Part shown: positions 58,671 through 64,000 of the stretch, one piece after another
Layout of the letters: the number at the start of each line of letters is the position of its first letter
Numbering within the stretch: the stretch's first letter is position 1
NCBI RefSeq assembly: GCF_003751805.1
Contig: NZ_RKHQ01000001.1
Location: 310,001-374,000 of the forward strand
Length of the DNA: 64,000 nucleotides
Direction of reading: 5' to 3'
Source: Salana multivorans
GTDB lineage: Bacteria; Actinomycetota; Actinomycetes; Actinomycetales; Beutenbergiaceae
The notes under the pieces: generated by a model
Seen by the model: the letters and a program-made list of their open reading frames with translations, nothing else
Databases searched by the model: none
Told to the model about the DNA's origin: nothing
Translations under genes and position numbers: made by a program

Positions 58671-60680
58671 TCAGGACCGCTCGTCGTCCTCCGGACGGGA
58701 CGGCCCGGTCGGGCCCTGGGGCCAGGCGGCGTCGCTCGCGGCGTCCGCGTCGGCCTCGTCCGGCCCCCACTCGCTGAGCGTGCGGGGCACGTCGCTGTCC
58801 GTGCCCGCCGACGCGGCCACCGGACGCTGCTCGGCGCGGCCGTCCAGCCCGAGGCCGACCTCGAGGAGCGCGGCCCGCAGCTCGCGGCGCTCGCGCTGCT
58901 TGTCCGGGTCGGGGACCGGGACGGCCGCGATGAGGCGCTGCGTGTAGGCCTCCCGCGGGGCGCGCAGGATCTCGTCCCGCGTCCCCTCCTCCACGATCCG
59001 TCCGTGCTGCATCACGACGATCCGGTCGGCGAGCAGGTCGATGACCGCGAGGTCGTGCGTGACGAACAGGCAGGCGAACTTGAGCTCGGCCTGGATCTGC
59101 TGGAACAGCTCGAGGACGTGCGACTGGACGGAGACGTCGAGCGCCGAGGTCGGCTCGTCCGCGACGAGCAGCTCGGGCCCGAGCGCGAGCGCCCGGGCGA
59201 TGCCGACGCGCTGCTTCTGGCCGCCCGACAGCTCGTGCGGGTAGCGGTTGCGGTAGGCCCGCGGCAGCTCGACCTGGTCCAGCAGCTCCTCGATCCGCTT
59301 CTGCAGCGCGTCGCCCTTGGCGAGGCCGGCCAGGTAGATCGGCTCACCGATCGACTCGCCGATCGGGAGCCGGGGGTTGAGCGAGGACGACGGGTCCTGG
59401 AACACCATGCCGACCTTGCGCCGCAGCTGCGCGCGCACCTTGCGGTCGCGCGTGCTCACGTCGATGCCGGCGACCGTCAGCGTGCCCTCGACGACGGGGA
59501 GCAGGCCGACGGCCGCCCGCCCGATGGTCGTCTTGCCGGAGCCGGACTCCCCGACCAGGCCGACGACCTCGCCCGGGCGGATCTCGAGGTTGGCGCCCTC
59601 GACCGCCCGGAACGCCGGGATCCGGCCCTGCTTGGGGTACTCGATCGCGACGTCCGCGAGCGTGAGGATCGGCGTCGTCCGGGCGAGCTCGTCCGAGCGC
59701 GCGGCCGCGGCCTCCGCCTTGGCGAGCGCCTCGGCGTTGGCCGCCTCGCGTCGGGCCATCTCCTCCGGGTCGACGTCGACGAGCGCGCTGCCCTCGCCGA
59801 CGGCGGAGGCGAGCGAGGCCGTGAGGTCGATGTCCGCGCCGCCGAGCGCCGGGACGGACGCGAGCAGCTCGCGCGTGTACGGGTGCTTCGGCTCGCTGAA
59901 GATCTCGTTCGACGTCCCGCGCTCGACGATGAGCCCGTGACGCATCACGATGATCTCGTCCGCCAGGTCGGCGACGACCCCCATGTCGTGCGTGATGAGG
60001 ATGACGGCGCTCTGGAGCTGGTCCTTGAGGTTGCGCATGAGGTCGAGGATCTCGGCCTGGACCGTGACGTCGAGCGCGGTGGTCGGCTCGTCGGCGATGA
60101 GCAGCTTCGGGTCGCAGGAGAGCGACTGGGCGATCATCGCGCGCTGCCGCTGCCCGCCGGAGAGCTGGTGGGGGTAGGACCGGAACGCCTTGACCGGGTC
60201 GGGCAGCTCCACCATCGTGAGCAGCTCGATCGCGCGGTCGCGGGCGGCGTCCGGGGAGAGCGGGTTGTGCAGCCGGAGCGTCTCGACGATCTGGTTGCCG
60301 ACCGTGTAGACGGGGTTGAGCGCCGTCATCGGCTCCTGGAAGATCATCGCGATCTCGTCGCCGCGGATGCCGCGCATCCGGGCCGGCGACATCCCCCGCA
60401 GCTCGCGGCCGGACAGCTTGACGCTGCCCGAGATGCGCGCGTTCTTCGGCAGCAGGTCGAGGATCGCCATCGACGAGACCGACTTGCCCGAGCCCGACTC
60501 GCCGACGATCGCGAGCACCTCGCCCGCGTGGACCGTGTAGCTCAGGTCGATCGCTGCCGGCACCCACTTGCGGTCCACGGCGAAGTCGACCGACAGGCCG
60601 GAGACCTCGAGGACGACGTCTCCGGTCGCGAGGTCCGGCGCCGCATCCACCGCGACGGCGGCGTAGCTGTTGTCGGTCAT
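58671..60680 (-). CDS. Peptide ABC transporter double ATPase (DppD-DppF type fusion)
   Basis: 669 residues from ATG 60680, six bases after AGGAGGT. Two complete ATPase halves: the first with GESGSGKS at 60-67, [13 protein letters not shown] and [11 protein letters not shown]; the second with a second GESGSGKT near residue 405, [15 protein letters not shown] and [11 protein letters not shown]. Both have the C-terminal extension typical of oligopeptide/dipeptide importers ([12 protein letters not shown]). It would energise the permeases DppB and DppC encoded upstream on the same strand. The PH-like gene lies between, on the other strand. Halves may have arisen by fusion of dppD and dppF. Confidence 0.93.
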
Positions 60681-60706: not shown

Positions 60707-61354
60707 GTGAGAACACGCGGGGACGGACGCAACGACACCTCGACACCGGGCGGGACGTGGGTCTACCGACCCCGGAGCTCCTCGGTCTACGCCGCCATCC
60801 TCGCGGTGGTGCTGGCCGGCTGGACGTGGTCGACGCTGGCCGACGGGACGTTCCGGCCGCTGGTCGCGCTGCCGTGGCTGCTGTTCCTGGCTACCGCCGG
60901 GTACACGGTGTTCGTGCGGCCGAGAGTCGAGGTGGACGACGCCGGCGTCACGCTGGTCAACCCGCTGCGCACCGTCGTCGTGCCGTGGCCGGCGCTCGTG
61001 CACGTCAGCACGCGCTACGCGCTCACCCTGCACACGCCCGGTGGGAACCACCGCGCCTGGGCGGCGCCCGGCCCCGGCCGGCACGCCGCCACCATGTCCA
61101 CCGCCGTCGACGTGCGCGCGGTCAGCCGGACCGGCGGGAGCACCGGCAGCGTCGGCCTCGGCGACCTGCCGAGCTCGCCGTCCGGCGTCGCGGCCCACCA
61201 CGTGCGCGAGCGGTGGCAGAACCTCGTCGACGCCGGCGCCGTCGAGGCGGGCGTCGCCGAGGAGACCCCGGTGCGCACGCGCGTCGCGTGGCCGTGGGTC
61301 GCCGCGCTCGCCGTCACCGCACTGGTCGGCGTCGGCGCGGCCCTGCTCGGCTGA
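60707..61354 (+). CDS. PH-like domain membrane protein
   Basis: 215 residues from GTG 60707. Two helices at about 27-44 and 49-68 (VYAAILAVVLAGWTWSTL and LVALPWLLFLATAGYTVF) precede a bacterial PH-like region (VEVDDAGVTLVNPLRTVVVPWPALVHVSTRYALTLHT), and a third helix ends the protein (VAWPWVAALAVTALVGVGAALLG). The PH region is probably cytoplasmic. Bacterial PH proteins of this form are common in actinobacteria and mostly unstudied. The gene fills the space between dppC and the double ATPase in antisense, starting 26 bases from one and ending 5 bases from the other. Confidence 0.75.
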   Translation: MRTRGDGRNDTSTPGGTWVYRPRSSSVYAAILAVVLAGWTWSTLADGTFRPLVALPWLLFLATAGYTVFVRPRVEVDDAGVTLVNPLRTVVVPWPALVHVSTRYALTLHTPGGNHRAWAAPGPGRHAATMSTAVDVRAVSRTGGSTGSVGLGDLPSSPSGVAAHHVRERWQNLVDAGAVEAGVAEETPVRTRVAWPWVAALAVTALVGVGAALLG

Positions 61355-61359
61355 GGTCG

Positions 61360-62481
61360 TCACGACCCCAGCCCGCCGATGCCGAAGCCGCTCGAGCGCT
61401 GGTCCAGCGGCCGCGGCGGCCCGGACGTCGTGGCCCCGGCCTCCGACACGATCCGCGCATTGGCCTCGCGGCGACGCTCGGCCTCGCCCGTGTCGGCCAC
61501 GCGACGCAGGGAGATCTTCTTCTGCCGCGGGTCGAAGGCGTCGCGCAGACCGTCGCCGATGAAGTTGATGCAGAGGCAGATGACGATGATGAAGATGCCG
61601 GGGAACCAGAACAGCCAGGGCCGGGTGGAGAACGCGGCCTGGTTCTCGCTGATGAGCTTGCCGAGCGAGGTGTCCGGCGCCTGCACGCCGAAGCCCAGGT
61701 AGCTCAGCGCCGTCTCGGTGAGGATCGCCGCGGACATGAGCAGCGTCGTGTTGACCGTGATGACGCCGACGGCGTTCGGCAGGATGTGCTTGAAGATGAT
61801 CCGGTTGTTCGAGGCGCCGGCGAGCCGCGCGGCGTCGACGAACTCCCGCTCGCGCAGCGTGAGGAAGTCACCGCGGGTGAGACGCGCCATCCCGGTCCAG
61901 CTCACGAGGCCGAGGAAGACACCCAGCAGGAGAACGCCCCCGTCGGACGCGTTCTGCCCGACGACCGCCGCGGCGACGAGCGCCGGGATGATGATGATGA
62001 CGTCGGTGAACCGCATGAGGACGGTCTCGACCTTGCCGCGGAAGTAGCCCGAGCAGGCGCCGATGACGACCCCGACGAAGGCGGCGATGGCGCCGACGAC
62101 GACGGTGATGAAGAGCGAGATCTGGATCCCGCGCATCGTCATGGCGAAGTAGTCGCGCCCGACCGAGTCCTGGCCGAACGGGTGCTCGCCGAGCGAGAAC
62201 GGCCAGAGCTGGAGCGAGGGGCGGCCGCCGTCGACGAGCGTCGGGATCTTCCCGGCGTAGCCGTACTTCCACCAGCCGGGGATCGGGCCCAGGCCGATCG
62301 AGGTGATCGCGAGGATCACGACGAACGCGAGCACGACGATGGAGACCATGGCCCCGGTGTGGCCGCGGAACCGCTTGCGGACGATGGCGCCCTGGCTCAG
62401 GCCCTTGACGTCGTCGCCGTCCGTGCCGCCTGCCGCGGCGTCCACCGGACGGACGTTCTCGAGGTTCTCCGGGGAGCTCAT
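61360..62481 (-). CDS. dppC: Peptide ABC transporter permease DppC-like
   Basis: 373 residues from ATG 62481, overlapping dppB as ATGA. The OppC N-terminal region (GAIVRKRFRGHTGAMVSIVVLAFVVILAI) is followed by the binding-protein-dependent permease domain with five or six helices and the EAA loop around EFVDAARLAGASNNRIIFKHILPNAVGVI. The long loop after the first helix is typical of OppC/DppC. The tail after ISLRRVADTGEAERR is basic and Gly-rich. It forms the peptide channel with DppB. Confidence 0.93.
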   Translation of the reverse strand: MSSPENLENVRPVDAAAGGTDGDDVKGLSQGAIVRKRFRGHTGAMVSIVVLAFVVILAITSIGLGPIPGWWKYGYAGKIPTLVDGGRPSLQLWPFSLGEHPFGQDSVGRDYFAMTMRGIQISLFITVVVGAIAAFVGVVIGACSGYFRGKVETVLMRFTDVIIIIPALVAAAVVGQNASDGGVLLLGVFLGLVSWTGMARLTRGDFLTLREREFVDAARLAGASNNRIIFKHILPNAVGVITVNTTLLMSAAILTETALSYLGFGVQAPDTSLGKLISENQAAFSTRPWLFWFPGIFIIVICLCINFIGDGLRDAFDPRQKKISLRRVADTGEAERRREANARIVSEAGATTSGPPRPLDQRSSGFGIGGLGS

Positions 62482-64000
62482 GCCTTCACCCGCACTCTCG
62501 GGTCGAGGGCGGAGTACGCGAGGTCCGCCAGGAGGTTGAACACGACGGCCATGAGGCCCGTGACGAGGAAGAAGCCCATGACGGGGGGTGGATCGATGTT
62601 GCTGAGCCCCTGGATGAACAACGTGCCCATGCCCTGGATCGAGAAGATCCGCTCCGTGATGACGGCGCCACCGAGCAGGGCGCCGATGTCGAAGGCCACG
62701 ATGGTCGCGATCGGGATGAGCGCGTTGCGGAACGCGTGCCGCGTGACGACGACGCGCTCGGACAGGCCCTTCGCGCGCGCGGTCCGCACGTAGTCCTGGC
62801 TCATCACCTCGAGCATCGAGGCCCGCGAGTAGCGCGTGTAGGACGCGAGGGAGATGAGGACGAGGGCCGCGGTCGGCAGCACGAAGTGGGTGAACGTGTC
62901 GATGCCGGAGGTCCAGAAGTCGCCGTCGAGGCCGGCCGTCGAGGAGCCGATGGTCGCGATCGGGCGGCCGCGCACGCGCGGGTGCGACATGTACCCGGGC
63001 CAGGCCAGGAAGAACCGGTCGAGCGCCACGAGGAGGGCGACGAGGAAGCCGGTGAGCCCGGCCGCCTTCATCGACTGGCCACGGTCGTAGCCGCCCATGA
63101 GGTAGCCGACCAGGACGCTGGCCCCGACGGCGAGGGCGCACAGCCCGACCATGAGCCAGAACGTCGCGCGCTCGAACAGCGGGACCATCACGACCATCGC
63201 CACGAGGCCGAGCCCGACGGAGATGAGGCTGGACCACAGCGCCTTGCGGTTCTTCAGCCCGGCGAACAGGACCGTGGCGCCGAACGCGATGGCGACGCCG
63301 AACACGGCGACCAGCGGGATGCCGAGACCCGGGTAGAGGAACCACCTGCTCGCGGAGAGGTAGAACGCGACGCCGGCGCCCACGACGATCCCGCCGCCGA
63401 GGAACGCGAGCCGCCGCAGCCAGCTCCCGCTCGCGACGAGGAGAGCCAGCAGACCCGTGACGACGCCGATGCCGATGATCGCGCCGGGTGGGATGGTCGG
63501 GTCGACCAGGAAGTCGTTGAACCGGATCGCGCCGAACTCCTTGAGCAGCACCGCCACCCAGAAGGACGGCAGCGAGAAGAAGAGGAACGTGCCGAAGGTG
63601 ATGAGGTAGTCGAACCCCGAGTACTGCCGCAGGGCGGTCACGATGCCGATGGTGACGCCGAGGATGATGGCGAGCAGCGTCGCGGCCGTGACGAGCTGGA
63701 GCGTCGAGGGGATCGCCGCCCGGAGCAGGCTCGTGACGGGCAGGCCGCCCGTGTTCGTGCCGAGGTCACAGGTTCCGGCGAAGGGGGCGACGCACCCGAC
63801 CACCCCGCGCAGCCACAGGAAGTAGCGCGGGACCAGCGGCACGTCGAGGTGGAGCTTCGCCGAGCGGTCGGCCATCAGCTGGTCGCGGTTCGGGGCGTTG
63901 CTCTGGCGCAGCTCGCGGAGCGGGTCACCCGACCACGCGACGAGGCAGAAGACGACGAACGATGCTGCTAGCAGAATCAGCGCTGACTGCAGCAGCCTGC
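62478..64000 (-). CDS. dppB: Peptide ABC transporter permease DppB-like, with extra membrane helices (5' end outside window)
   Basis: The frame runs past the right edge; the ATG at 63875 is internal, since upstream codons to 64000 encode the normal DppB start (LLQSALILLAASFVVFCLVAW then SGDPLRELR). Over 500 residues are visible versus about 310-340 for typical DppB. The extra length lies at about 62991-63485: some six hydrophobic segments between the usual third and fourth helices. The flanks are canonical: FLFFSLPSFWVAVLL before, and THFVLPTAALVLISLASYTRYSRASMLEV, QDYVRTARAKGLSERVVVTRHAFRNALIPI (EAA loop) after. It overlaps dppC by 4 bases. Confidence 0.88.
   Translation of the reverse strand, partial: RLLQSALILLAASFVVFCLVAWSGDPLRELRQSNAPNRDQLMADRSAKLHLDVPLVPRYFLWLRGVVGCVAPFAGTCDLGTNTGGLPVTSLLRAAIPSTLQLVTAATLLAIILGVTIGIVTALRQYSGFDYLITFGTFLFFSLPSFWVAVLLKEFGAIRFNDFLVDPTIPPGAIIGIGVVTGLLALLVASGSWLRRLAFLGGGIVVGAGVAFYLSASRWFLYPGLGIPLVAVFGVAIAFGATVLFAGLKNRKALWSSLISVGLGLVAMVVMVPLFERATFWLMVGLCALAVGASVLVGYLMGGYDRGQSMKAAGLTGFLVALLVALDRFFLAWPGYMSHPRVRGRPIATIGSSTAGLDGDFWTSGIDTFTHFVLPTAALVLISLASYTRYSRASMLEVMSQDYVRTARAKGLSERVVVTRHAFRNALIPIATIVAFDIGALLGGAVITERIFSIQGMGTLFIQGLSNIDPPPVMGFFLVTGLMAVVFNLLADLAYSALDPRVRVKA

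Follow-up and report, generated by a model that had tools for sequence, protein, structure and literature searches.

Near the end of the analyzed window, a 64,000-nucleotide stretch of the Salana multivorans genome, the minus strand carries a gene for a DppB/OppB-type permease, followed by genes for a DppC/OppC-type partner permease and a fused DppD-DppF-type ATPase (Table 1). The open frame of dppB inside the window covers 62478-63998 (506 residues) and its start lies past the window edge; residue numbers hereafter refer to the full-length permease of 513 residues, unless the 506-residue window frame is named. The permease matched the Pfam family BPD_transp_1 with 90.7 bits against a cut-off of 26.4 (E 1.2e-25), and its alignment with E. 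coli DppB and M. tuberculosis OppB revealed the coupling (EAA/RTA) stretch between TM4 and TM5 (YVRTARAKGL...RHAFRNALIP). The NCBIfam equivalog cut-off was reached by none of the permease, the binding protein and DppC. The best NCBIfam models and PDB chains each aligned to the permease in two separate stretches.

Table 1. Coordinates of the permease gene, its insert and the neighboring operon genes within the window.
Feature	Coordinates	Strand	Remarks
dppB, DppB/OppB-type permease gene with insert	62478..64000	-	first seven codons beyond window edge; 513 aa in genome
Insert	62955..63515	-	~187 residues, about residues 169-355 of 513; profile alignment
Insert helix a (hairpin 1)	63435..63488	-	predicted out to in; AlphaFold2 and Kyte-Doolittle
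Insert helix b (hairpin 1)	63351..63422	-	predicted in to out; AlphaFold2 and Kyte-Doolittle
Insert helix c (hairpin 2)	63264..63323	-	predicted out to in; AlphaFold2 and Kyte-Doolittle
Insert helix d (hairpin 2)	63189..63248	-	predicted in to out; AlphaFold2 and Kyte-Doolittle
Insert helix e (hairpin 3)	63096..63161	-	predicted out to in; AlphaFold2 and Kyte-Doolittle
Insert helix f (hairpin 3)	62988..63083	-	predicted in to out, with conserved D334; AlphaFold2, Kyte-Doolittle and conservation
DppC/OppC-type partner permease	61360..62481	-	Pfam BPD_transp_1 and OppC_N, NCBIfam; start overlaps dppB stop (ATGA)
Fused DppD-DppF-type ATPase	58671..60680	-	two ABC_tran and two oligo_HPY stretches; without four-Cys iron-sulfur motif

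The insert in the TM3-TM4 loop

The borders of the insert were set with a profile of 20 insert-bearing relatives aligned to M. tuberculosis OppB (Rv1283c, PDB 8j5q chain B), the best solved relative of the permease by sequence (E 2.4e-48) and by profile (E 1.2e-80). This chain is also its best structural relative (Z 12.8, rmsd 3.0 over 164 residues), the core being aligned on both sides of the insert. The 325-residue M. tuberculosis protein has nine residues (160-168, the outer loop between TM3 and TM4) where insert-bearing permeases have approximately 187, and homology restarts after the insert at a TIG...TP...FW stretch preceding TM4. In the pairwise alignment, the same chain covered residues 1-161 and 351-504 of the 506-residue window frame and left the middle unmatched. 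The Kyte-Doolittle profile of the whole permease displayed 12 hydrophobic segments, six falling within the insert and six outside it; the latter constitute the core, and the flanks align with solved chains. E. coli DppB (PDB 8z1v and 8z1y), which shares the same core and RTA coupling stretch by alignment, has six helices in all according to PMC12136057. Despite its 12 segments, the permease is filed as a variant within the OppB/DppB family because the core homology is kept, and the insert is what sets it apart.

The first-pass annotation had placed about six hydrophobic segments between the third and fourth helices of DppB, at 62991-63485, and our predictions agree closely with it, since the predicted insert helices span 62988-63488. 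In the AlphaFold2 model of the full permease (mean pLDDT 71.3, pTM 0.54), which is weak outside the insert, the latter appeared as six long helices, with a pLDDT of 79-93 per ten-residue block. A separate prediction of the insert by itself, from an alignment that included 46 relatives, reached a mean pLDDT of 88.6 and a pTM of 0.76 and gave six long helices and two short ones. We gathered 142 proteins by match to the insert, of which 137 were distinct, the window permease included. The insert held six segments in 136 of these and five in the remaining one (L020), and its length, as cut for this count, ranged from 181 to 192 residues with a median of 184. The same crude predictor returned 12, 13 or 14 segments for the whole protein in 36, 67 and 34 of the 137 cases, so that only the count within the insert is firm. 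That count is even and comprises six membrane segments, neither odd nor few; both flanks of the insert therefore remain outside, as had been anticipated. Lysine and arginine accounted for 985 of 4469 residues in the predicted cytoplasmic turns of the insert and for 462 of 6701 outside (136 proteins), and the loops of the insert on the outer side are short. The earlier proposal of a separate membrane domain is likewise borne out at the level of prediction, by the confident fold of the insert alone, its conservation in many families and its clean insertion; of the tasks suggested for it there, regulation, lipid contact or a partner protein may each apply. We conclude that the permease is almost certainly of the OppB/DppB kind of type I ABC importers, with a six-helix membrane domain in the extracellular TM3-TM4 loop.

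Searches with the insert alone assigned it to no family. At E 0.1, none of the Pfam families had matches in more than 2 of 20 members, and DUF6056 stayed below its cut-off for the window permease. A profile search of the PDB returned nothing at E up to 1 and Foldseek nothing at E 0.001 or better, which does not imply that the fold is new. VIA found nothing at Z 8 or more; its top rows were the membrane half of RND efflux pumps (MexB, AcrB; Z at most 7.2, rmsd 4.2, 114 residues), a likeness with many tied rows that extends over roughly helices c-f alone and is no better than unrelated helical bundles would be expected to give. No description of such a permease was found in the literature searched, namely open-licence PMC articles, with most subscription journals lying outside.

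Distribution and origin of the insert

The insert alone matched 36 of 59 genomes including that of S. multivorans, hence 35 of 58 other related genomes, and always at the same place. In the class sample, the 20-row insert profile matched 50 of 296 genomes (own genome included) with one match each; 48 of these matches had E < 1e-40, corresponding to 47 other genomes, and the rest were a contig-edge fragment (G303) and a weak match (G046). In the phylum sample, 5 of 296 genomes matched. Besides the own genome, these were two members of the order that had been found before, and G371 and G441, which belong to other groups. The classes of the last two yielded 2 matches in 148 genomes (G371 and one weak match) and 1 in 66 (G441 itself), with no new strong case in either; it is to be noted that these samples overlap in some genomes. 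A query comprising the insert and its flanks confirmed at least 498 related stretches, the best 80 of which were examined and all carried the insert. These 80 belong mostly to Arthrobacter, and also to Cellulomonas, Luteimicrobium, Sinomonas, Actinotalea, Pseudarthrobacter and Haematomicrobium. In the plasmid collection 3420 records matched the query and one, an 11.9 Mb record labelled Nonomuraea gerenzanensis, covered at least 80% of it. Insert-bearing permeases are found mostly in one actinobacterial class, which the genus names suggest to be Actinomycetes, in many families and usually once per genome. The possibility of an assembly error, a chimera or a chance run of hydrophobic codons is ruled out with near certainty by these independent assemblies (the 35 other related genomes, the 47 other class genomes and the 80 loci) and by the six segments kept in 136 of 137 proteins; the close homologs, whose lack of the insert the first-pass annotation would have read as an assembly error, carry it.

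Four records deserve separate mention. One of them (L144), a short contig from a metagenome, bears the title Acidobacteria bacterium isolate G2_11 and thus a different phylum name, yet has an insert-bearing permease; it is probably misbinned, transfer being the other option. Another (L080) bears the title Vibrio cholerae strain 35D, contig 29, but the 3.7 Mb genome behind it has two insert-bearing matches, so that mislabelling or contamination of an actinobacterial assembly is probable. Two weak partial profile matches, G655:C37:61279-61551 (L220, E 5.1e-4) and G046:C36:22784-23122 (E 6.4e-4), whose frames have 388 and 278 residues respectively, are at most putative permeases and possibly due to chance.

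In order to place the insert-bearing permeases, we compared 34 of them with a chosen sample of 37 insert-less permeases of 307-358 aa, 30 from 16 genomes without an insert match and seven from the own genome. Between fixed alignment points the insert-less proteins have 18-44 residues and the insert-bearing ones 209-220. In a tree of the core only (312 columns, 71 sequences, supports read as splits of an unrooted tree), the 34 insert-bearing permeases formed one clade with a UFBoot support of 100, and this clade together with six insert-less permeases formed a larger group with a split support of 99. None of the 37 sampled insert-less permeases, drawn as they were from insert-free genomes and paralogs, fell inside the insert clade. 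Because the sampled insert-bearing permeases form one clade, the data fit a single gain of the insert, within a sample that was chosen and not exhaustive.

The three hairpins of the insert resembled each other when compared with hhalign (scores 24.1, 18.6 and 19.3; probabilities 69, 21.5 and 19.5%). These scores were reached by 0, 1 and 0 of 60 within-helix column shuffles, and reversed controls scored 9.0-12.1. This resemblance makes it likely, though not certain, that the insert arose by tandem triplication of a two-helix unit. A derivation from the permease's own helices was also considered, as BLAST aligned the last insert helices with TM2-TM3 of insert-less permeases, and was rejected: profile comparison with the core gave a probability of 0.4, not above that of the reversed insert (0.9 and 0.3).

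The operon and its ATPases

Genes for the binding protein (SBP), a second permease and the ATPase also accompany dppB in its own operon. The binding-protein gene, the permease, DppC and the ATPase lie together on one strand in all 80 loci examined, the best of at least 498, and the binding protein carries a lipobox-like motif near its start in 77 of them. The permease gene also has the binding-protein gene immediately upstream of it in each of 20 further insert-bearing loci. As described in PMC12136057, E. coli DppB functions together with an SBP, DppC and a pair of ATPases, which are separate and each hold a [4Fe-4S] cluster; the ATPases of the window are instead fused, lack the Cys motif and have two cysteines in all. 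The four-Cys motif is absent, as in the own genome, from the 80 best of at least 498 loci, three of which have short frames. Among the 20 further insert-bearing loci, it is found in at least one ATPase in eight and in none in 11, while L203 breaks off ahead of its ATPase gene; in addition, it is present in L199 and absent in L198. Four insert-less relatives near the clade (L194-L197) have the order B-C-DF-A with the Cys motif. Because some insert-bearing loci keep the motif, the insert is, from these gene comparisons, probably older than the ATPase fusion and the loss of the cluster. The simple idea that the insert compensates for lost iron-sulfur clusters was rejected, since eight of the 20 loci and L199 have insert and motif together and 5 of 7 insert-less paralog systems of the own genome also show no motif (regex).

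A gene of the bPH_6 family (Pfam PF10756, E 2.3e-10) is located at 60707-61354 on the plus strand, antisense between dppC and dppDF, both on the minus strand, with its start 26 bases from that of dppDF. A bPH_6 homolog lies antisense between C and DF in all 80 loci (best 80 of at least 498) and in seven of a further 26 (L198, L201, L202, L208, L210, L216 and L219); among the rest, the contig edge truncates L203, and in L212 the homolog is located elsewhere. This arrangement may represent a conserved noncontiguous operon, a concept that PMC7154746 reportedly describes.

Possible roles of the six-helix domain

According to PMC12136057, residue F164 of E. coli DppB is packed onto DppC at the entrance on the periplasmic side. 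In our alignments this residue comes three positions after the last one aligned ahead of the graft. Because the graft adjoins the extracellular gate, we tentatively propose a role as a lateral scaffold. The domain would pack beside the permease core, where it would stabilize the DppB/DppC assembly and the gate, and/or would seat the lipoprotein binding protein over the importer entrance. Together with the identification of the permease and its domain, this makes up our best explanation of the core homology and borders, the six helices with their even topology and positive inside, the occurrence in many genomes, the single clade (split support 100), the hairpin similarity above shuffles, the operon with a binding protein carrying a lipobox-like motif, the position of the graft three residues before F164, and the near-invariant residues mostly at turns and helix ends. 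Beyond the insert the full model is too weak to show the insert packed against the core, and this counts against a scaffold. So does the conservation of the insert, lower than that of the core (0.58 versus 0.74), which speaks against any tight role, and the short outer loops leave little surface for a binding protein to be seated on. We therefore regard the scaffold role, whether in assembly, gate or seating, as possible yet doubtful, and the complete statement of identification, clade, hairpins, operon and scaffold as having slightly less than an even chance of being right. A second transport path through the insert is probably not present.

The same low conservation would be expected of an insert that is a mostly passive appendage: a block of membrane helices acquired a single time and tolerated since, in which selection maintains topology and packing alone. 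In weighted counts, which rest on about 30 effective sequences, the insert helices scored 0.39-0.57 and the core helices 0.53-0.79. Such an appendage, which we consider a real if minority prospect, is harder to reconcile with a length of 181-192 residues and six segments kept in 136 of 137 proteins, with the absence of insert-less permeases from the clade among the 37 sampled from insert-free genomes and paralogs, and with near-invariant residues such as N168, P230, G254, G305, G310 and D334. The positions with weighted counts of at least 0.91 also include G198, R203, W226, G233, A245, T249, L261, G271, L293 and R352, and most of these positions lie in turns or at helix ends.

The membrane aspartate D334, located toward the outer end of helix f and conserved at 0.97 by weighted count, raises the prospect that the insert binds a ligand or ion by itself, for example a lipid, a hydrophobic cargo or protons. 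The weak likeness to half of an RND membrane domain (Z at most 7.2) would fit such a module. This seems rather unlikely, as D334 is a single conserved acid, the RND likeness is confined to about helices c-f at the level of unrelated helical bundles and Foldseek returned nothing at E 0.001 or better. An equally speculative proposal, and an improbable one, is a built-in partner subunit: an autonomous domain made of a triplicated two-helix hairpin, fused into the extracellular gate loop, that would bind the SBP lipid anchor, a lipid or hydrophobic cargo and control gate opening. If true, it would be an integral-membrane regulatory domain undescribed for importers of the OppB/DppB family in the literature searched.

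The six-helix permease is the described unit of peptide-type importers, and here a widespread clade has added as many helices again at the gate loop. The insert clade constitutes a natural test of gate control and SBP docking.
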